Assembly: GCF_024449025.1 (NCBI RefSeq)
Contig: NZ_JAHLKM010000005.1
Span: forward strand, 49,605-113,604
Origin: Natronomonas aquatica
Lineage (GTDB): Archaea > Halobacteriota > Halobacteria > Halobacteriales > Haloarculaceae
Direction: 5' to 3'
Length of the DNA: 64,000 nucleotides
Shown: positions 9,950 through 22,698 of the stretch, in pieces
Position numbering within the stretch: position 1 is the stretch's first letter
How the letters are laid out: every line of letters starts with the position of its first letter
Notes under the pieces: generated by a model
The model's database searches: none
Seen by the model: only the letters and a program-made list of their open reading frames with translations
What the model was told of the DNA's origin: nothing
Translations under genes and position numbers: made by a program

Positions 9950-10053
9950 GGGCCCTTAGCTCAGTGGTCAGAGCGCTCGGCTCATACTCCCGGTGGCCGA
10001 CCCCGTCGGGATGGGACACCGAGTGGTCGCCGGTTCGAACCCGGCAGGGCCCA
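9950..10053 (+). tRNA. tRNA-Met (CAT), elongator type, with a 31-nt intron
   Basis: The acceptor GGGCCCT pairs with AGGGCCC and the discriminator is A. The D-arm is GCTCAGTGGTCAGAGC and the T-arm GCCGGTTCGAACCCGGC. The anticodon stem CTCGG/CCGAG is interrupted by an intron at 9987-10017, between positions 37 and 38, the canonical archaeal site. The loop reads CTCATA with anticodon CAT. The stem lacks the three G-C pairs of initiator tRNAs, so this is the elongator. The 3' end is the left edge of a 200-bp repeat recurring at 15598. Confidence 0.93.
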
Positions 10054-10248
10054 TCCAAACACCGAACGATTCTTAGCCGACCTAAACGGTGGATAGAACG
10101 CACCTACCGCCAATTTTCTTGTTTCAGCGTGAGTTCGACCGGTCATTTTCATCTGGAGTTCACTTGGCCACCAAACGGGGGGGCGCTGCCTTCCGGGCTT
10201 CTGTGATATTCGAAACGGGGATGGAACTAAATCAATTGCCGATTGAGG
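10046..10248 (+). repeat. Long direct repeat, left copy (at the tRNA-Met 3' end)
   Basis: This 203-bp stretch begins in the last 8 nt of tRNA-Met (AGGGCCCA) and recurs at 15598-15799 with about 85-90% identity by eye. Shared landmarks include CCAAACACCGAACGATTC, GGTGGATAGAA, CATCTGGAGTTCACTTGG and GCGCTGCCTTCCGGGCTTC. It looks like one end of an integrated or duplicated segment. GGTGGATAGAAC (10088-10099) also has an inverted partner, GTTCTATCCACC, at about 10394-10405. Confidence 0.85.
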
Positions 10249-10476
10249 GTGATCAGTTCTTGTTGTGCACAGCGAAACAGCGGTATTTCTCTGTGAGTTT
10301 AGACGGGGCTACCGATTGTTCTGTACACTTATTATTAAACACTAACTCAGCTCTGAGCACTAAGTCAAACTAAGGAAGGATTCACTAATCGGTTCTATCC
10401 ACCAACATAGCAACTAACCGCCGTCATCATAGGTGTCTAAATTGCCTTGTTGGATCGAGATACTGCGTCCAGGTGA
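10249..10476. other. Gene-free AT-rich stretch
   Basis: There is no credible coding sequence between the left repeat and the end of the transducer gene. The stretch is markedly richer in A+T than the core genes on the left. It contains the inverted partner GTTCTATCCACC of a word in the left repeat. Confidence 0.5.
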
Positions 10477-12207
10477 TCAGTTCGTCGTTTCCAAGTTTGC
10501 GTTCTCGTCAGCGGCGAGTTTGAACACGTCAACTCGGTCGTACAGCTGATCGCTTATTGCGCTGAGTTGCTGTGCGTTCGCGGCCACCTCTTCCATCGCA
10601 TCAGATTGCTCATCAACACCGTTCGAGATCTGCTGAATCGACGCCGTGATCTCTTCACTCATACCGGCTGTATCTTCCATGACCGTACTGACGACCTCGG
10701 CGTTTTCAGCCTGTGACTCGACGGCATCAGTAATCTCCTCAAGTCCTTCGCTCGTTTGATTCGCTCGCTCGTCGATCGTTTGAAGTCGTTCGGTTAGCTC
10801 TTCAACCTCATCGGCTCCGTTTTTGACTTTCTCGTTGGCGTCGGTAATACTCTCAACGAGATCCGCCGTCTGCTCTTGTACGTCGGTGATGATACCATCG
10901 ATCTTGTCGGCCGATTCCTGTGACTCCTCGGCGAGATTCTTGACCTCATCTGCGACAACTGCAAACCCCTCGCCAACATCACCCGCACGGGCAGCTTCGA
11001 TATTAGCGTTCAGGGCGAGAATATTCGTCTGATCGGCGATGTCGGCGATCATCTCGATGATTTCACCGACTTGCTCCATGCTGTCTTCAAGATGGTCGAT
11101 CCGCTGTGCGACTGTTGAGGTTGCATCGGTCGCTTCCCGGATCTGGCCAGCTGTCCCTGTCGCATCTTCGACTCCTTTTGAAGCGATACTGGCGACTTCT
11201 TCTGACTGAGAGTCGATCTCCTGAATGGTGGCTGTAATCTCTTCAATCGAAGCCGAAAGGTCATCGATGTTCTCGTTAGTCCGCTGGGAATCCTCAGCGA
11301 GATCATCAGCTCCGTTGGCCAGTTCGGCCGACGACGCGTCGATCTGTTGAATCGAGGCCGTTATTTCTTCGCTGTTCGCGCTGAGTGTCTCGCTCGTCTT
11401 GTTCAATTCCTCAGCGTTTTTCGTCAGCGTCTCTACCATGTCGCGGATATTGTCCGTCGCCCTGTTGAGGTTCTGGTTCAGTTGCGTGAACTCCTCGTAG
11501 ACCTCAGCGGCTTCGTCATAATCTTCTTCAGGTTGCGGGACAGTCGGATCGATGGTTAGATCGCCCGCTGCGAGCCGAGCAAGTTTGTCTTGTAGGTCAT
11601 CGAGAACATCCTGCTGGTACTGTTCGAGGAACTGTTTTTTGTTCCGTTGTCGGTTGCGCTCAGTCACGTCCTTCTCGATGAGCATCGCGCCGAGGAACGT
11701 CCCGCCGTCGTATAACAGCGTGACAGTCCGCTCTAGTGGCGTCTCCTGTCCGGCGACAAGCATGGTTTCCTCGCGTTGTTGAATGTCCTCGCCGCGTTCG
11801 ATCGCCTCGGAGACGATGTCGCTGGCCGAGCTGTCGTCAGCCTGTAATGCGTGTGGGACGGTTCCGAGCGCTTCCTGTTCGGTACAATCGTACAGATCCA
11901 GTACCTGCTGGTTGATGTGGGTGATCCGGCCGTCGACATCAACTACAACGGTCGGTTCCTGTAACCCATTGAGAATGCTCTGGACGATCGCCTGTGACTC
12001 ATCCGAGCGGGCTTTTTTACCGTTTCGCCGCGAGGTCTCGGTAGGCGGATTCGTTGTATTAGATCCGGACTGATCTGAGTACGATCCGTTCCCGTTTCTA
12101 CCAAGTAGTCTGTCGACGATCCCGTCTGATTCATTCGATACGTCGTTCCATTCGACGGTTTCGGCTTGATGGTCGGAGTGCCCGTCCCGCTCGGTTTGTT
12201 TGCTCAT
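10477..12207 (-). CDS. Soluble halobacterial transducer (methyl-accepting chemotaxis protein) with PAS domain
   Basis: This 576-residue protein has no membrane segment. A Ser/Asn-rich N-terminus (1-70) leads to a PAS domain (about 71-190: [22 protein letters not shown] to [13 protein letters not shown]), a short HAMP-like or coiled linker ([15 protein letters not shown]), then a long helical signalling domain (about 250-570). The conserved hairpin tip [19 protein letters not shown] with [18 protein letters not shown] is intact, so it can bind CheA/CheW. Flanking helices contain repeated [10 protein letters not shown] methylation-type stretches. It should sense a cytoplasmic signal through PAS and feed the taxis pathway. 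No che genes are in the window. Its base composition is lower in GC than the core genes. Confidence 0.92.
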
Positions 12208-12477
12208 ACCCCACCATCAGAACATTCTTATTAAATGCCTTGCTCGATTACACTTCTCGTTTTTCAATATTGGGAACCCTTTCGGCACTCGACAATTACA
12301 ATCCAAAATCAGCTTTTTAGTGGCTTATTCGGCCAATCAGTCCCAAATGTGAGACGGACCGGGAACTGCGGTTTGTTCCAGCATAAGTAACAGATATTGG
12401 TAAATATGTATAAAGATTGAACAATCTGTTCGGGTCAGTTTTAAGAACATAGTCGTTTCACGATGGATTCCGTGCAA
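12208..12477. other. AT-rich intergenic stretch with promoter-like elements
   Basis: This 270-bp gap precedes the transducer gene, so it probably carries that gene's promoter reading leftward. TATA-like sequences occur around 12405-12415 (AATATGTATAAAG) and near 12220-12235 (TTAAATGC on the opposite strand). No gene is visible. Confidence 0.4.
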
Positions 12478-13230
12478 TCAGGATTCGGAACGCGGGCGGC
12501 TGTTAGTAACGGGTAGATACGTGGCTTCGAGATATTCAAGAACACCATCGATGATCCGTCCATCATATGTCCACGCACCGTAGAAGGTGTCATCGCCGCG
12601 CTCTTCGGCGAGGAGAGCACTCTTTTGGGTTTCGTCGCCGCCGCCATCGAAGACAACAAACCAAGTCTGTGCGAGTTCGTCCGAGTCGATCGCATGTACC
12701 CGGGCCCTGCCAAGCTCAGGCGGTGCAGTGTCCGGAACTCCATAGGCATGAACCTCAAGGCCGCGGTGAGCGAGGTCTGTGTAGATCGCCTGCTGGTCAG
12801 CCAGTATTGAACACCGCTGAAATCCAGCGTGAACCGTTCCACTCCCGACTCGGCGGGCACGATCTTCGATTTCACGGGACGCGTAGAGCATCTGCTCGGT
12901 ATCGTACGACGTGAACGTCGTTTCCTTGAGGTAGCCGAGGACTGCCTCGTATTCTCCATCCGCGACACCAATCGTTTCGGACCGAGCTGGCGAGTGATCG
13001 ACGAACTTCCGGAGCGTCTCAATATCGACTCTGCTAAGGACTTCGGTGTTGTTGCTGAGGATAGCGATTGGTGGTTGTCGTGACGCTGTCTGACTCATCG
13101 AGACATTCACATTCTGTGCGGCAAAGTAGGTGGTGAGACGCTCAGCAAGCGGGTCGGATGAATCGATATTGAATAATACGAGTTCTTTTTCGAGTTGTCT
13201 GATCTGCTCGATGCCATCCTGAAGGCTCAT
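12478..13230 (-). CDS. DICT-domain sensory protein
   Basis: This 250-residue protein resembles haloarchaeal DICT (diguanylate cyclase and two-component) sensory proteins. An N-terminal part (about 1-110) includes LVLFNIDSSDPLAERLTTYFAAQNVNV and the segment ILSNNTEVL. The C-terminal part (about 115-235) has the pattern FQRCSILADQQAIYTDLAHRGLEVHAYG, then a core ending TFYGAWTYDGRIIDGVLEYLEATY. Such domains accompany two-component and light-sensing proteins and are thought to bind ligands or partners; the ligand is unknown. ATG 13230 is preferred to GTG 13233. It lies between the transducer and the divergent REC-kinase, as expected for a sensory cassette. Confidence 0.75.
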   Translation of the reverse strand: MSLQDGIEQIRQLEKELVLFNIDSSDPLAERLTTYFAAQNVNVSMSQTASRQPPIAILSNNTEVLSRVDIETLRKFVDHSPARSETIGVADGEYEAVLGYLKETTFTSYDTEQMLYASREIEDRARRVGSGTVHAGFQRCSILADQQAIYTDLAHRGLEVHAYGVPDTAPPELGRARVHAIDSDELAQTWFVVFDGGGDETQKSALLAEERGDDTFYGAWTYDGRIIDGVLEYLEATYLPVTNSRPRSES

Positions 13231-13460
13231 CACAATATGCTACGATGAGGGGGGGTATTAATAGTCGGCCTTTGATGTATTTACTCTGCTTATCCAAACT
13301 GCTGTGAAGCCAAAATATATGCTCGCTTATCCGTAGAGATTGTTAATGTCGTCACTTTCAGCGTTTGAACGTCACTCTCCGACCGCTAACTATTCAATAG
13401 GTTAAATTACAAGCCCTTTGTGTACCATACTATTTTTTATTTGAACACTATTATTGGAGT

Positions 13461-15599
13461 ATGAGTGATGCGGCAAACGCGATCCCAATTCTTCACGTGG
13501 ATGATGAGCCGGATTTTGCTGATATGGTAGCGACGTTTCTGGAGCGTGAAGATGATCGCTTTCACGTTGAAACGGAAACGAGCGCTAGCGCCGGGCTAGA
13601 TCGTCTCTCTGAGGCGCAGTTCGATTGTATCATTACCGATTACGATATGTCCGGGCAGAATGGCATCGAGTTTCTCGAAGCCGTCCGGGAAGACCATCCA
13701 GATCTCCCCGTTATCCTGTTCACCGGAAAAGGAAACGAAGAGGTCGCTAGTAATGCGATCTCCGCAGGTGTTACGGACTACCTACAGAAGGGAACCGGAA
13801 CCGACCAGTATACCGTTCTCACAAATCGAGTTCAGAACGCTGTTGAACAGAGAAAAGCCAAACAAGAACGCAACCGCCAACTAGAAGCGATTGAAACCGC
13901 GCAAGAAGGTATCGCCATCCTTGATGAGGACGGCCACTATCTCTATGTCAACCAGCGGTTCGCCGGTATCTTCGGGTACGATCCCGAGGGGTTTGTCGGC
14001 GAACACTGGGAACTCGCCTATCGAGACGAGGACATCCCCGAAGTCCGAGAGGAAATTCTTCCAGAAGTCGAACGAGAGGGGTACTGGCGCGACGAAACGA
14101 TTCATCCCAGGGCGGATGGCGGTACAGTAACCGTCGACCATACACTTGCGCTGACCGACCGGGGAGAACTCGTCTGTACAGTACGGGATATTTCTGATGA
14201 AAAAGAACGCGAACAGGCGCTTCAAGAAAAAACAGCTAGGCTAGAAGCTCTTTTCGAAAACTCGCCGGATATGATCAATATCCACGATATAGACGGCAAT
14301 ATCCTCAATCCAAACCCTCGGTTGTGTGAAAAAACCGGCTATGACTCCGTAGAACTCACCGATATGAAAGTCTGGGATCTAGACCAGGCTATCGATCCCG
14401 ATAAAATACGCACACTCTGGGAAAATATGGAAGTCGGGGATCGTCATCGGTTAGAAGGACGTTATCAACACCAAGATGTCTCAACATTCCCCGTCGAAGT
14501 GCACATTAGACGTATTCAGCTGTGTGGGGGAGATCGGTTTGTCGCAATCGCTCGGGACATCACCGAGCGCAAAGAGTACGAACACGAACTCCGGGAGAAG
14601 CGCGTTTTTGTCGAGCAGTGTCTCGACGCACTTAACGACGTGTTCTACGTGTTCGGTCCTGACCGTGATATTCTACGGTGGAATGACCGCCTCTCAGAGG
14701 TCACAGGGTACTCCGAAGAAAAGATTGCAGAGATGAAACCAGCGGATTTCTTCCCGGATGACCACGCTCCACGAATCGCCCAAGCGGTCGAAGACGTTCT
14801 GGAAACTGGCCAGGCGACGGTTCAAGCGGACTTTCTCACGAACGACGGCGAACGAATCCCCCACGAGTTCACGGGGTTTCGACTGACTGACTCTGAGGAG
14901 AATGTGTTGGGGTTTGTGGGTATCGGACGGGATCTACGGCAGCGTCAAGAGTACGAACAGCAGTTCCAACAGCGCAACGAACGGTTAGAGGAGTTTGCCA
15001 GTATCGTCAGCCACGACCTTCGGAATCCGTTGACCGTAGCTGAGGGACGCCTTGAGTTGGCACAAAACGAGTGTGACAGCCCACATCTGGAGGCCGTTGC
15101 TGATGCCCACAGTCGGATCAAGGAATTGATAGAAGAACTGCTGACGCTGGCCCGCGAGGGAACAATCGCGTTGGACCCGGAAGCAGTCTCGCTTGCGGAC
15201 CTCGCACAGGCGAGTTGGCGGACTGTTGCGACCGAGGAATCCACGCTCTCTATCGATGAAGAAGCGACGATCTGGGCGGACGAGAGCCGACTTAGACAGT
15301 TGCTTGAGAACCTGTTTCACAACGCAGTCGAACACGGAGGTGGGAACGTAACAGTCAGGGTGAGGTCCCTCGACGAGGGCGGTGGATTCTATATCGCGGA
15401 TGATGGTCCAGGAGTCCCGGAAGCCGAGCGTACATCCATCTTCGAAAGCGGAGTCACGACCGGCGAGGACGGTATCGGTGCGGGGTTAAGCATCGTCAAG
15501 CGGGTAGCTGAGGCACACGGCTGGGAGATCAACGTAACTGACAGCGATTCTGGGGGAGCCAAATTCGAAATTGCTGGCGTTGAGGGGGGATCCGAATAG
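13461..15599 (+). CDS. Hybrid response regulator / PAS sensor histidine kinase
   Basis: This 712-residue protein has an N-terminal receiver domain (about 8-125, acidic pair in HVDDEPD, phospho-acceptor Asp60 in IITDYDMSG, Thr88, Lys110). Three PAS domains follow (about 140-250, 257-370, 378-495), then a HisKA helix with His518 in FASIVSHDLRNPL, and an HATPase (about 600-705: ENLFHNAVEH, DDGPGVPEAE, GAGLSIV). All catalytic motifs look complete. It is cytoplasmic. The gene diverges from the DICT gene across 230 bp. Its TAG stop (15597-15599) lies on the first bases of the right copy of the 200-bp repeat, so the gene reaches the very end of the cassette. GC is lower than in the core genes. Confidence 0.93.
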   Translation: MSDAANAIPILHVDDEPDFADMVATFLEREDDRFHVETETSASAGLDRLSEAQFDCIITDYDMSGQNGIEFLEAVREDHPDLPVILFTGKGNEEVASNAISAGVTDYLQKGTGTDQYTVLTNRVQNAVEQRKAKQERNRQLEAIETAQEGIAILDEDGHYLYVNQRFAGIFGYDPEGFVGEHWELAYRDEDIPEVREEILPEVEREGYWRDETIHPRADGGTVTVDHTLALTDRGELVCTVRDISDEKEREQALQEKTARLEALFENSPDMINIHDIDGNILNPNPRLCEKTGYDSVELTDMKVWDLDQAIDPDKIRTLWENMEVGDRHRLEGRYQHQDVSTFPVEVHIRRIQLCGGDRFVAIARDITERKEYEHELREKRVFVEQCLDALNDVFYVFGPDRDILRWNDRLSEVTGYSEEKIAEMKPADFFPDDHAPRIAQAVEDVLETGQATVQADFLTNDGERIPHEFTGFRLTDSEENVLGFVGIGRDLRQRQEYEQQFQQRNERLEEFASIVSHDLRNPLTVAEGRLELAQNECDSPHLEAVADAHSRIKELIEELLTLAREGTIALDPEAVSLADLAQASWRTVATEESTLSIDEEATIWADESRLRQLLENLFHNAVEHGGGNVTVRVRSLDEGGGFYIADDGPGVPEAERTSIFESGVTTGEDGIGAGLSIVKRVAEAHGWEINVTDSDSGGAKFEIAGVEGGSE

Positions 15600-15838: not shown

Positions 15839-16084
15839 TCATAAAATCGCCACGAACTGTGTGATGTTCCCGCGCGTGTTCGTGACTGGGATGACCTTCT
15901 GGTTGACCTCGTAGAGTTCGCCTTGTTTGGTCTGATTTGTCAGTTCGGCTTCCCACACGTCGCCGGCCGTGATTTGCTCCCACAGGTCTGCATAAAACGC
16001 ATCGTCTTGTTCCCCGGATTTGAGCATGCGTGGATTGCGCCCGTTCGCTCCGGACGCCGTATACCCATATTTTTCAATCGAAGT
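15839..16084 (-). pseudogene. PAS-domain fragment of a lost sensor kinase
   Basis: An open stretch between a TAG (at 16085-16087) and a TGA (15839-15841) encodes most of a single PAS domain: YGYTASGANGRNPRM, KSGEQDDAFYADLWEQI, then EAELTNQTKQGELYEVNQKV and IPVTNTRGNITQFVAI. Intact haloarchaeal relatives continue with EHDVT after FVAI; here the frame runs straight into a stop. The 5' part of the gene is missing too. The break lies about 40 bp from the right repeat, so the gene was probably cut when the cassette arrived. It is antisense to the sequence just upstream of the LOV kinase. Confidence 0.8.
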
Positions 16085-16168: not shown

Positions 16169-19100
16169 TTGGGCCTCGTACTCCTCTTCGTATCGATCGC
16201 CATCGGATGCTTCGTCGCTGCCGTTTACGGATCGCGGCTTCAAGGACGGGATACGCAACTCGGGCTCAGAGCCGTGTTGGTAACGAACGGACTGTGGCTG
16301 ACCTTCCAAGCACTTGGACTGTTTACCACAAATGAGAGCCTCAGTGCCGCACTGTATATCGGCGGCCTGATCTGGGGCCTCACTGGGGTCGGCGCATGGG
16401 TGTACTTCATCTCCGCCTACACCGGTCGATCGTATCACCGAGATCGACGCTACCGTAGACTCGCGGTCGGTGTCTACCTTGGCCTCGTCACGGTCAAACT
16501 CACCAATCCGTTGTACGGCCTCTACGTTCAGACACAAATCCAGCCGGCTCCATACCCGCATCTCGTCGTCGAACCGCAACTGTTCTATTGGATCTCGTTC
16601 ACGCTCACCTACACACTCGTAGCGATCAGTTTCTACTGGCTGCTCAACGCTTTCCGCGGTTCCTCGCAGCCGACCGCGGGGCTCAGCGCGCTCGCAGTGC
16701 TTTCGCTGGTTCCGGTCATTCCACGGGCAGCCTTCACGGTACTTCCAGCCGGGGCCTTCCCGCCTGTCTTGTTAGGGGTGAGTTTCGAGCCGATCGGTGT
16801 CGCCGGCTTCACGCTTGCAATGTTGGTATTCGTCGAGGACACGTTTCGGCGAGTCGAACGCTCTGCTCGATCAGAGGTCTTCGAGAAGGCTGATGATGCC
16901 ATGTTCGTGTACGATCCCAACGGAGAACTCGTCGAAACCAACAGACAGGCCGACAGCCTACAGTCGAATATCGGCATCAGGTGTCCAACCATCGAGGCGT
17001 TCGAACAAACGTTCAAACCTGCCGATGAAGACGATGAGTCGAGCGTCGTCTCTATCGAAACCGACGGATCGACCCGGTACTTCGACATTACAATTAATCC
17101 GATGGGAATTGGGACCGAGAACGTCGGAACGGTCGCCGGCGTTCGGGATGTCACGGAGCGCAGGGAACGGAAACGCGATCTTGAATTGAAACAGCGAGCT
17201 ATGGATGAGGCGACGGTCGGGATCACGATCAGCGATCCGGACACCGAGGATAACCCGCTGGTGTATGTGAACGACGGCTTCGTCGAACAGACCGGCTACA
17301 GCCGCCAAGAGGTACTTGGACGGAACTGTCGGTTCCTGCAAGGCGACGATAGGGACCAAGCCGAGCTTGACGACCTGCGGGAAGCAATCGCGGCCGAAGA
17401 GCCGATAACCGTCGAATTGCGCAACTACCGCAAGGACGGCGAACAGTTCTGGAATCGTCTCTCGGTGACACCAGTCTACGACGAGGCCGACGACTTGACC
17501 TACTACATCGGTATCCAGCAGGACGTGACCGAGCAGAAAGAAAAGGAGCGCGAATTGCGAGCGGAACAGGAACGGTTTGAGCTGCTCACCGAGAGCGTCG
17601 AAGAGTACGCTTTCATCGTCGTCGATGAAGACGGCGACATCCGGACGTGGAATGAGGGTGCAACGAACCTCTTTGGCTACAAAGCCGAGACCGCCCTCGG
17701 GATGCCGATGGCTCACCTTCACCCTGAAGCTGACCGCCAGTCAGGGCTCCCAACCCGGGTGCTCCAGCAAGCCCGGATTGCCGGCGAAAGCAGTGATGAG
17801 GGCCGGCGCGTCCGTGCCGACGGCTCAGAGTTCTACGCCGACGTTCGCTACGCAGCCCTCGAAACCGACGACGGCGAGTTTCGGGGCCACGCGGCGATTG
17901 TTCGGGACATGACCGAAGAGCGACAACAACGTCGTAGAACCGAGCGGTTCGTTGAGGAATCCGACGACGTCGTCTCGATACTCGATGCGGACGGAACTTT
18001 TGATTATATCAGCGGTTCCGCCGATCACGTGCTCGGTCACGATTCCGACGCTCTACTCGAAGAGAGCCTCTTTGATTACCTACATCCCAGCGACCGGAAG
18101 CGGGTCATGGAAGCGTTCTTTGACTGCGTCGAAGATATAGAAGGCGACATCGAGATCGAAGGCCGGTTTGAATCCGGCAGTAGCGAGTGGTTAAACGTCA
18201 ATATCAGGTGCCGCAATATGCGTGCCGATGATCCGATCGACGGGATACTCCTGTATCTCCGTGACGTGACCGACAGCAAAGAGCGCACCCGGCGGCTGGA
18301 AGCGATTTTCAACGGCACGTTCCAGTTCACGGGGTTGTTAGAGCCCGACTCGACGGTGATCGAGGTCAACGACGCCGCGCTCGAATTCGGCGGGTTCGAG
18401 CGCGAGAACGTTGTCGGAGAGCCGTTCTACGAAGCACCATGGTGGACACACTCCGAAGAAGTCAATAACCGTATCCAGGACGCACTTGCGCGTGCAGCCG
18501 AAGGCGAGTTCGTTCGCTATGAGACAGATGTCAAGGGTGCAGAGGGACTTGCGACGATCGATTTTTCTGTCAAGCCAGTGACTGACGAGGACGGCGATGT
18601 GACGCTGCTCATCGTGGAAGGGCGCGACATCACAGCCCAACGACAACAAGGGCAACACCTGAATGTAATGCAGCGCGTGATGCGGCACAACATGCGAAAC
18701 GATCTGAGCAAAGTCCGAGGATGGGCTGAGTTACTCGCCGAGGAGTCCGATCCCGACGAACGGGCTCGCCAATTCGAGACGATCGAACGCATTTTGAAAA
18801 AGTGGGGGAGTATGACGGAGAACATAGAGCGAATCCAGGGCGCGATACAGTCCCAGCGAGACGAGCAGACTACCGTCGACGCGTCGGGACTCGTAGAGAA
18901 AGTAACAGAATCAAGCAAGGAAACGTTCCCAGAAGCTGAAATTGAGGCAGAAATCGCTGATATAGAGTCTGCACCGGTTCCAGCGGTGCTCGGTGAAGCG
19001 CTGCGGGAGTTGATCGAGAACGCCATCGAAGCGACCCCGAACGACGACTGCCGCGTTGAGGTTCGGCTCTCTCGGCCGGACAATAATTGGGTTTATGTTG

Positions 19101-19333
19101 ACGTGGTCGATAACGGCTCCGGGATGCCCGAGATGGAAGCCGACGTGCTCGAAAACGGTGAAGAGACGCCGCTCAATCACGGGAAAGGGCTCGGTGTGTG
19201 GATGATACGGATGCTCGTCAAACAGGCCGGCGGTGATGTCTCTGTTGATGCGACCCCGGATGGGACGACGGTCAGTCTCATGATACCAGTCAGAGACGAA
19301 ACTGCTACCAACACGCACTCAACGACGTACTGA
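16169..19333 (+). CDS. Membrane histidine kinase with LOV (blue-light) and further PAS domains
   Basis: The protein is about 1054 residues. The N-terminus (about 1-220) has seven hydrophobic segments of the histidine-kinase 7TM type. After it come a short PAS, then a LOV domain (nucleotides about 17190-17540) with the full flavin motif GRNCRFLQG (Cys387, codon 17327-17329) plus VELRNYRKDGEQFWN and YYIGIQQDVT. At least three more PAS domains follow. The kinase core has H-box MRHNMRND (His840), N-box ELIENAIEA, G1 DNGSGMP and G2 HGKGLGVW. The flavin-bonding Cys predicts blue-light sensing. The start is uncertain: no ATG or GTG lies at the expected place. TTG 16169 fits the membrane domain best; the frame stays open to an ATG at 15923, but that part is antisense to the PAS fragment. 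Confidence 0.85.
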   Translation: MGLVLLFVSIAIGCFVAAVYGSRLQGRDTQLGLRAVLVTNGLWLTFQALGLFTTNESLSAALYIGGLIWGLTGVGAWVYFISAYTGRSYHRDRRYRRLAVGVYLGLVTVKLTNPLYGLYVQTQIQPAPYPHLVVEPQLFYWISFTLTYTLVAISFYWLLNAFRGSSQPTAGLSALAVLSLVPVIPRAAFTVLPAGAFPPVLLGVSFEPIGVAGFTLAMLVFVEDTFRRVERSARSEVFEKADDAMFVYDPNGELVETNRQADSLQSNIGIRCPTIEAFEQTFKPADEDDESSVVSIETDGSTRYFDITINPMGIGTENVGTVAGVRDVTERRERKRDLELKQRAMDEATVGITISDPDTEDNPLVYVNDGFVEQTGYSRQEVLGRNCRFLQGDDRDQAELDDLREAIAAEEPITVELRNYRKDGEQFWNRLSVTPVYDEADDLTYYIGIQQDVTEQKEKERELRAEQERFELLTESVEEYAFIVVDEDGDIRTWNEGATNLFGYKAETALGMPMAHLHPEADRQSGLPTRVLQQARIAGESSDEGRRVRADGSEFYADVRYAALETDDGEFRGHAAIVRDMTEERQQRRRTERFVEESDDVVSILDADGTFDYISGSADHVLGHDSDALLEESLFDYLHPSDRKRVMEAFFDCVEDIEGDIEIEGRFESGSSEWLNVNIRCRNMRADDPIDGILLYLRDVTDSKERTRRLEAIFNGTFQFTGLLEPDSTVIEVNDAALEFGGFERENVVGEPFYEAPWWTHSEEVNNRIQDALARAAEGEFVRYETDVKGAEGLATIDFSVKPVTDEDGDVTLLIVEGRDITAQRQQGQHLNVMQRVMRHNMRNDLSKVRGWAELLAEESDPDERARQFETIERILKKWGSMTENIERIQGAIQSQRDEQTTVDASGLVEKVTESSKETFPEAEIEAEIADIESAPVPAVLGEALRELIENAIEATPNDDCRVEVRLSRPDNNWVYVDVVDNGSGMPEMEADVLENGEETPLNHGKGLGVWMIRMLVKQAGGDVSVDATPDGTTVSLMIPVRDETATNTHSTTY

Positions 19334-19736: not shown

Positions 19737-21065
19737 TTAAGGTCTACAGTCCACCACCTCTGTCTGCGGTTGGAATCCGCAGGAGAGGTCATACAGGTAG
19801 ACTGCTGGCTGTGCCAACCAGCCGGTACACCTATCCCCGGACAACTGCCCGGAAGACTCGGAGTTACTTTCATCGACGCTGTTTATATCGAGACGGATGT
19901 TCTCCGCCCCATTCACATCCGCGTTGAACGCATCATTGTGTTCGTCGCACACGTACAGACCACGTTCAACCCGCTGATTCTCATCTGTTTTCCCGCACAC
20001 GCAACACGTCTTACTGGTATTCCGTTCGTCCACTTCGTTCACTTCGATACCTTCCACTTTCGCCTTGTACGTGAAAATCGAGGTGAAGCGGTCGAACGCC
20101 CAGCCGTGCAAGTCGAGGTTGCCGTGCCGACCCCAGTTTTTCGCCTCGCCATCGCCGTCTTCACGCACTCTTTCCAAGTCACCAATATTGATTCGACCAA
20201 CCTGTTTCTCAACACACCGCTCAACGATGTGCTTGGCGAGACTGTGGAAAAAGTGGGTGCGGCGGTCACTCCATTTCGCATGGAGTCGCGTTGCTCGCTT
20301 GCCGCCTGAGTCGTCGCACTTGGCGATTTCTTTCGGGAAGTAGTACCCGTCTTGTTTCAGACGGTTGCCCGGATACAAGTCGGCTTCTTCCGTGCTGTAG
20401 GCAACAGCGGCGAAATTGCAGATGCCGAGGTCGATGCCAGCGGTTTCATCACCGGGAGCGTCTGGGGTTTCAATCTCGTCTTTGCAGACGATGTGAAGCT
20501 CCCACTGGCCTTTCGCACGGTTGTAGACGGCACGCACCTGTTGGACGTTCTCAACAGTCGCGTCAGGCCGGGTTTCGTATTCGACCAGCATATACTCCCA
20601 CGCTTTCGGGTGTTCTTTGTGGTTTGCGCCTTTGCTGAGGCGAATCTTGTTGTGTTTCTGGTCGTGCTTGAACCCGTTCTGTTTCCACGTCACCGTGCTA
20701 CGGGGGTGTTCTTCGTGAACACGATTGCCGTCTTGGTCGTAGTAGTTGCGTTTGCGGTAGCCCGGCGGGTTCGCACGGTCATCGGACTTGCGTTTCTGAT
20801 ACCACGAGTGAAAGCTTTCAGCAAGCTCCTCAAGAACTCGCTGACTGGACTGGCTATGCAGTCCGTTGTATTTTGGATGTGTCTTCAGCTCGCGTTTCAA
20901 GTCTTTATGATCGGGGATCTCGCCGGTTTCGTCCCAGACGTTGCGGGCGTGGTAGTTGGCGACGTTCCAGAGTTTGCTGGCACTCCACCCATGCCGGTCG
21001 AGCGACTCTGCAACCTGTGAGTAGTTGCAGATTTTCGCTTGGTGGGTGCGGTGAACTTTCAGCAT
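19737..21065 (-). CDS. tnpB: TnpB RNA-guided endonuclease (IS1341 type)
   Basis: This 442-residue protein has a complete RuvC-like triad: Asp212 in AGIDLGICNFA, Glu298 in IGDLERV and Asp383 in FNADVNGAENI. The zinc-ribbon has Cys354 and Cys357 (CCVCGK) but the second pair is Cys373 and His376 (VCDEH), where Cys-x2-Cys is usual. The length is normal for haloarchaeal TnpB. TnpB uses an RNA from its own right end to cut matching DNA and keep the element in place. The C-terminus, CTGWLAQPAVYLYDLSCGF, is shared with a decayed tail in the small element at 30.1 kb. The reading frame looks intact, so it may be active. Confidence 0.93.
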   Translation of the reverse strand: MLKVHRTHQAKICNYSQVAESLDRHGWSASKLWNVANYHARNVWDETGEIPDHKDLKRELKTHPKYNGLHSQSSQRVLEELAESFHSWYQKRKSDDRANPPGYRKRNYYDQDGNRVHEEHPRSTVTWKQNGFKHDQKHNKIRLSKGANHKEHPKAWEYMLVEYETRPDATVENVQQVRAVYNRAKGQWELHIVCKDEIETPDAPGDETAGIDLGICNFAAVAYSTEEADLYPGNRLKQDGYYFPKEIAKCDDSGGKRATRLHAKWSDRRTHFFHSLAKHIVERCVEKQVGRINIGDLERVREDGDGEAKNWGRHGNLDLHGWAFDRFTSIFTYKAKVEGIEVNEVDERNTSKTCCVCGKTDENQRVERGLYVCDEHNDAFNADVNGAENIRLDINSVDESNSESSGQLSGDRCTGWLAQPAVYLYDLSCGFQPQTEVVDCRP

Positions 21066-21366: not shown

Positions 21367-22698
21367 ATGGACGACCTTGAGACGACGACCACAGATCTAG
21401 TGATCCCCGACGAACGCGTTTACGGGACCTGCGGGACGACCGAGTTCCCCCGGGTCGGCGTGATCGAACAGGACTGGGAGACGAACCCCATCCCGGAGGA
21501 CCGCCTCGCGGCCGAAGCGAGCGCGGCAGTCGCGGAACTCGCCCTCGAAGACGTCCCGGCCGGCGGCGAGGTCGCCGTCGGCGCCGGCTCGCGCGGCATC
21601 GCGAACGTCCCGGAGATCGTTCGCGGCGTCGTGGAGGGTCTTTCCGACCGCGGCTACGAGCCGTTCGTCTTCCCGGCGATGGGGAGCCACGGCGGCGCGA
21701 CCGCCGAGGGCCAACGCGAGAAGCTCGCCGCGCTCGGCGTCACCGAGGCGGCTGTGGGGTGTGAAGTCCGCGCGACGATGGAGACGGAGATCGTCGGCGA
21801 AACCGACGATCACGGGATCGCCGTCCACGCCGACGCCAACGCCGCCGCGGCGGACGCGATCGTGCCGGTCAACCGCGTGAAGCCGCACACGGACTTCGAC
21901 GGCGACGTCGAGAGCGGTCTCTCGAAGATGCTCGTTATCGGCATGGGCAAACAGCGGGGCGCCCAGATGGCCCACCGCTGGGCGCTGGACTGGAGCTTCC
22001 GCAACATGCTTCCGGAGATCGCCTCGTTGATCATCGATCGACTTCCGGTGGTCGGCGGCGTCGCCGTCGTCGAGGACCTCCACGACGACACCACGATCAT
22101 CGAGGGCGTCCCGCCGGAGGGCTTCCTCTCGCGGGAGGCCGAGCTGCTCGAGATCGCCTACGAACAGCTCCCTACGCTCCCGTTCGATGACCTCGACGTG
22201 CTCGTGCTCGACCGCATGGGCAAGGACATAAGCGGTCCCGGGATGGATCCGAACGTGCTCCAGCGGCGCCCCTACGAGCCGGAGCCGATCCTCGAGCATC
22301 CGCGATACACGCGCGTATATACCCGGTCTCTCACCCAACCCTCACACGGTAACGCCATCGGGCTCGGACTCGCGGACCTCGTCCACGCCGACCTGATCGA
22401 GGAAATGGAACCGGAGAAGGCGTTCACGAACGCCGTGACCGCGAGCGCGCTTCGGGGGATCCGCACCCCGACGGCCGTCGAGAACGACCGGGCCGGCCTC
22501 ACCGTCTGTCTGTCCACGATCGGCGTGAACGAACCCGAGAGCGTCCGGCTCGTCCGAGCGCGCGACACGATGCGTCTCGGCACTCTCGTCGCGAGCGAGG
22601 CGCTCGTCGAGGAGGCGCGCGAGCGAGAGGACCTTCGCGTCGTCGCCGAACCCGAGCCGATCGACTTCGAAGACGACGATTTCCTCGCGTTCCCGTGA
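21367..22698 (+). CDS. LarA-like (DUF2088 / nickel-dependent lactate racemase family) protein
   Basis: The 443-residue protein looks like the LarA/DUF2088 family. It has an N-terminal domain with VAVGAGSRGIANVPEIVRGV and FPAMGSHGGATAEGQREKLAALG (about 100-130), NRVKPHTDFDGDVESGLSKM (about 180-200), and a C-terminal half with DRMGKDISGPGMDPNVLQR. LarA enzymes racemise 2-hydroxy acids with a nickel-pincer cofactor. The histidines SHGG and KPH are compatible with that, but the substrate here is unknown and no larB/C/E genes are nearby. The ATG at 21367 lies 105 bp from the end of the TnpB element, so core sequence resumes here. Confidence 0.7.
   Translation: MDDLETTTTDLVIPDERVYGTCGTTEFPRVGVIEQDWETNPIPEDRLAAEASAAVAELALEDVPAGGEVAVGAGSRGIANVPEIVRGVVEGLSDRGYEPFVFPAMGSHGGATAEGQREKLAALGVTEAAVGCEVRATMETEIVGETDDHGIAVHADANAAAADAIVPVNRVKPHTDFDGDVESGLSKMLVIGMGKQRGAQMAHRWALDWSFRNMLPEIASLIIDRLPVVGGVAVVEDLHDDTTIIEGVPPEGFLSREAELLEIAYEQLPTLPFDDLDVLVLDRMGKDISGPGMDPNVLQRRPYEPEPILEHPRYTRVYTRSLTQPSHGNAIGLGLADLVHADLIEEMEPEKAFTNAVTASALRGIRTPTAVENDRAGLTVCLSTIGVNEPESVRLVRARDTMRLGTLVASEALVEEAREREDLRVVAEPEPIDFEDDDFLAFP

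Follow-up and report, generated by a model that had tools for sequence, protein, structure and literature searches.

The gene considered here occupies positions 16169..19333 (+) of the window, by which we mean the whole 64,000-nucleotide stretch of Natronomonas aquatica DNA that was analysed, and encodes a 7TM-PAS-LOV-PAS-PAS-PAS histidine kinase of 1054 aa. The frame runs open from a TTG at 16169 and ends with the stop codon 19331-19333. Where translation starts is uncertain, with several relatives starting ~10-30 residues earlier, and this TTG is the sole standard start close to the conserved region. On its 5' side lie an HTR-type transducer (HTR/MCP gene; 10477-12207, -), a stand-alone DICT domain protein (12478-13233, -) left unnamed by the earlier note on this DNA and a REC-3xPAS-kinase (13461-15599, +). 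The 569-bp gap that separates the REC-kinase from the LOV kinase contains, outside the gene and on the opposite strand, the remnant of a PAS/LOV-like domain (15845..16081, -; C57:65449-65685), an 81-aa open stretch with 33% identity to aa 371-449. Just 3' of the kinase we find a TnpB-family RNA-guided endonuclease gene of the IS200/IS605 type (19737-21065, -), followed by a protein that scores above the NCBIfam cut-off for nickel pincer cofactor-dependent isomerase group 22 (21367-22698, +). The GC content around the LOV kinase is 52-56%, against 57-68% elsewhere in the window.

Pfam matches combined with an AlphaFold model give the domain order 7TM - PAS - LOV - PAS - PAS - PAS - HisKA - HATPase. 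The full-length model (8 aligned sequences, mean pLDDT 65, pTM 0.28, the 7TM part being weak) comprises seven N-terminal helical segments, five PAS-type folds and a DHp-CA kinase. The seven-helix membrane region (16169..16852, +) is a member of HisKA_7TM (PF16927; aa 6-222, 45.2 bits against a cut-off of 28.6, E 1.3e-11), and its helices are modelled at aa 2-20, 27-52, 56-85, 95-111, 136-164, 169-205 (broken) and 208-240, with low confidence over aa 81-236. The first PAS domain, with no known ligand, follows at 16874..17158 (+; aa ~236-330, from the secondary structure of the model), and three more are located beyond the LOV domain at 17570..18643 (+; aa ~468-590, 591-705 and 706-825), as indicated by Pfam PAS_9, PAS and PAS_4 stretches together with the model. 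In the kinase core (18644..19297, +) the DHp phosphoacceptor His, H840, is present within an intact H-box (MRHNMRND), as are the N, G1 and G2 boxes of the ATPase (ELIENA, DNGSGMP and GKGLG). HATPase_c is detected by Pfam at aa 941-1042 (2.9e-16), and HisKA reaches 24.5 bits, just below the Pfam cut-off of 26.9. The membrane helices, several PAS domains and complete kinase core described in the earlier note are thus all recovered, within the limits of the model confidence and the HisKA score.

The LOV domain (17177..17569, +; aa 337-467) is YtvA-like. Its motifs GRNCRFLQG (17318-17344), RNYRKDGEQFWN (17420-17455) and YIGIQQDVT (17504-17530) lie in frame, and the codon of the adduct-forming Cys387 is TGT at 17327..17329 (+); the motifs and the Cys codon are as given in the earlier note. 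Searched in isolation (phmmer), the domain matches YtvA with E 4.8e-44 (2mwg) and the YtvA LOV domain with 3e-43 (2pr5), while plant phototropin LOVs are matched at ~1e-30. The predicted LOV assignment is far beyond chance, and the LOV/PAS fold, GxNCRFLQ motif and adduct Cys by which a LOV photoreceptor domain is recognized are present together. The flavin-contact set is also complete, consisting of N386, R388, Q391, R404, N419, N429 and Q450, which we take to be the equivalents of Avena LOV2 N449, R451, Q454, R467, N482, N492 and Q513. Across an alignment of 95 haloarchaeal Cys-LOVs that includes the domain of the window kinase, all seven residues show little or no variation. The canonical LOV domain claimed earlier is therefore upheld, with no flavin-contact residue lost in the alignment.

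The 7TM-PAS-LOV head is matched at E <= 1e-90 in 9/391 genomes, eight of these nine carrying the LOV motif. The closest ortholog, 94% identical, is that of 'Natronomonas sp. LUM.42', and a genome of the same genus carries this 94%-identical gene as well. Orthologs that share the head, some full-length and others partial, are present in Halobellus salinus, in Halorubrum (one of them on a megaplasmid of H. ezzemoulense Fb21), in a Halorientalis MAG and on one contig binned as Syntrophomonadaceae, which is probably misbinned haloarchaeal DNA. Cys is found in every LOV-bearing 7TM ortholog; the motif is missing from a more distant 7TM relative (L092, 39%), which thus carries no LOV signature. Comparison with the LUM.42 ortholog yields dN 0.028 and dS 0.114 for the whole gene (dN/dS ~0.25) and dN 0.040 and dS 0.153 for the LOV domain (dN/dS ~0.26), low ratios that indicate purifying selection and thus a working gene. 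A functionless gene, decaying or recently acquired, would fit the AT-rich composition, the adjacent TnpB gene, the PAS remnant upstream, the TTG start and the patchy distribution of the head, but with a full-length open frame, this dN/dS and every catalytic motif intact it is the reading to which we give the least credence. The gene, its domains, its residues and the selection acting on it are established, and we are largely confident that this Natronomonas gene encodes a working sensor histidine kinase of the orphan type, bound to the membrane, on which blue light would act through the LOV-Cys387 adduct.

The catalytic boxes are less uniform among the orthologs. The ATPase N-box is degenerate in the Halobellus sequence L020 (KLITIAV, locus 9962-13150) and in the Halorubrum sequence L088 (RLVAIAI), with the His box intact in both, so that kinase activity is perhaps not conserved family-wide; orthologs such as these may be pseudokinases or phosphatase-biased. 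The G1 box is likewise degenerate in L020.

The surroundings of the gene give a different picture. From the adjacency of the transducer and the REC-kinase the earlier note had proposed a light-responsive signalling set, and one could envisage a local light-taxis module in which the LOV kinase, the REC-kinase, the DICT protein and the HTR transducer act together. The genes are indeed adjacent in the window, and a role of the DICT domain in light responses has been predicted (PMC8612252), which makes a local link of the kinase with its neighbours conceivable, though unsupported. Against this, the HTR transducer, the DICT gene and the REC-kinase have no counterparts flanking the orthologs of Natronomonas LUM.42, Halobellus salinus and Halorubrum ezzemoulense, the LUM.42 ortholog having a different MCP gene upstream. 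Furthermore, the genome holding the 94%-identical, LUM.42-type ortholog contains no close REC-kinase homologue, the gap with its PAS remnant separates the two kinase genes, and DICT is matched three times in the N. aquatica genome. Such a module is thus very improbable. We also considered that the LOV kinase might share an operon, or a conserved gene grouping, with the REC-kinase, DICT and HTR genes, and rejected this given the lack of conservation at the ortholog loci and the absence from the nearest genome of any close homologue of the REC-kinase. The proposed signalling set is not supported, and the AT-rich, TnpB-bearing surroundings of the kinase are an accessory region with no conserved module. 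In another genome of the genus, a 40%-identical relative of the REC-kinase (G123:C1:829575-831731) has a canonical LOV motif (at 830414) that is absent from the REC-kinase of the window.

The suggestion that this sensing is distinct from that based on rhodopsins is valid for the domain, but the same genome also has rhodopsin genes, with five PF01036 matches. Together with five canonical LOV motifs besides that of the window kinase, these make the LOV kinase one of several photosensors.

The C-terminal half of the protein provides additional clues on its origin. The 3xPAS-kinase part shares 44-65% identity with its counterpart in soluble kinases, whose frames in some cases span 1450-1940 aa, and in these sisters the LOV-like domain often reads GRNPRFLQG, with Pro in place of Cys; one has Tyr. 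In two sequences (L022 and L036) Cys and Pro LOV-type domains stand in tandem. Pro-form domains were found in 16/145 genomes, from 5 genera and in two architectures, and they keep the pocket, with the N419 and Q391 equivalents present in 22/22 and that of Q450 in 21/22 (L153-L174); the Pro-form thus perhaps binds flavin without forming an adduct. N. aquatica itself has a Pro-form LOV-like domain elsewhere in its genome (L002/L154, C23:32470-32494). In the LOV tree the 7TM members, L019, L023 and L088 among them, fall into a 12-member clade with soluble Cys or Tyr members (support 0.998), and a larger clade (support 0.82) unites this group with 18 Pro members. A separate clade of 7TM members is not supported, these being grouped with the soluble Cys/Tyr members. 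Domain shuffling onto a single kinase chassis accounts for the protein.

The same sisters bear on what the LOV domain does. Since kinases with the same C-terminus often have Pro, and once Tyr, for Cys while keeping the flavin pocket, the chassis can apparently operate without a photoadduct. It is therefore conceivable that LOV, though flavin-bound, works chiefly as a PAS module of redox or structural function, with the 7TM ligand as the true input and light incidental. Yet Cys is kept without exception in the LOV-bearing 7TM members, and the LOV domain is under purifying selection, and we consider this scenario unlikely.

If the kinase is instead a photoreceptor acting through Cys387, its flavin binding, photochemistry and signal direction would be those expected from knowledge of LOV kinases. 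Blue light absorbed by the LOV flavin would give rise to the Cys387-flavin adduct, which by analogy with LOV kinases could cause a change, either a rotation or a pivot, along the helices linking the PAS repeats. This would in turn alter autophosphorylation at His840, and so the kinase or phosphatase output, together with the phosphotransfer to a response regulator. The 7TM domain may act as a second input, for a membrane or extracellular cue, or as a plain membrane anchor. In this context, we tentatively put forward, as a possibility deserving nearly as much belief as doubt, that haloarchaea possess a small family of membrane photoreceptor kinases with two inputs, where a single kinase would integrate light, received by a Cys-LOV, with a membrane signal received by a fused 7TM receptor, the kinase half being common to soluble sisters, many with Pro for Cys. 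If so, the 7TM-LOV kinase with its conserved Cys would be a natural receptor on which light and a membrane cue converge, in cells that have mostly been studied for their rhodopsins.

LOV domains as such are widespread in this group. A DNA pattern for the canonical motif, whose reversed control gave 0 in every listed genome, is found in 309/391 haloarchaeal genomes and at 6 places in that of N. aquatica, which makes canonical LOV proteins the norm in this group. A 2014 survey counts 167 LOV proteins from 82 archaeal species, these being DNA-binding proteins and kinases with RR, GAF and PAS domains (PMC4844311), and a 2025 study describes one haloarchaeal LOV that was expressed and shown to photocycle in up to 3 M salt (PMC12202551). 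An N-terminal membrane region was scored in 1/95 sampled haloarchaeal LOV ORFs, namely the window kinase, by a simple hydropathy count with a strict threshold, which undercounts, as it scored 3-4 helices in the window kinase itself. LOV photoreceptor kinases are described as mostly soluble and cytosolic (PMC6798134), and HisKA_7TM is a recognized haloarchaeal sensor domain (PMC5847659); by the open literature the 7TM-LOV fusion thus joins two known parts in a new way. Searches of that literature for membrane LOV receptors returned engineered tools or unrelated reviews alone, an absence that is no proof, subscription papers being outside the scope. Haloarchaeal LOV kinases being already known, the fusion to 7TM is a mild novelty, and apart from it the gene is unexceptional within the large set of haloarchaeal sensors.

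Several known systems resemble the window kinase in part. Approximately half of the residues of the B. subtilis YtvA LOV domain (2pr5, 2mwg) are identical to the haloarchaeal LOV over ~125 aa, and the Cys and the flavin-contact set are shared. YtvA is, however, a short soluble LOV-STAS protein with neither kinase nor membrane part, whereas the 7TM-LOV kinase has both; the latter misses the NCBIfam YtvA cut-off (199 vs 250 bits), lacks STAS and thus does not belong to the YtvA family. The bacterial LOV histidine kinases (BluLightHisKinLov; 6ph4, 4r3a) couple LOV to a kinase as here, but they are soluble and of a different architecture, and the score against the NCBIfam equivalog for blue-light-activated histidine kinases (NF052306) is 169 bits against a cut-off of 450. 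Within the same genome, a second HisKA_7TM kinase (L003) has an N-terminus of the same 7TM-PAS type, with 36% identity over aa 1-346; it is shorter (655-aa frame), and its match to the LOV kinase spans the 7TM-PAS and kinase parts to the exclusion of the LOV region. Further parallels are the archaeal LOV kinases of the 2014 survey by Losi (PMC4844311) and ALovD-1 from Lake Diamante (PMC12202551), haloarchaeal PAS/LOV-histidine kinases with the canonical motif, as in the window kinase. In the available text of these two sources their additional domains are RR, GAF and PAS alone and a membrane domain goes unmentioned, whereas the window kinase carries its LOV domain behind a 7TM region.
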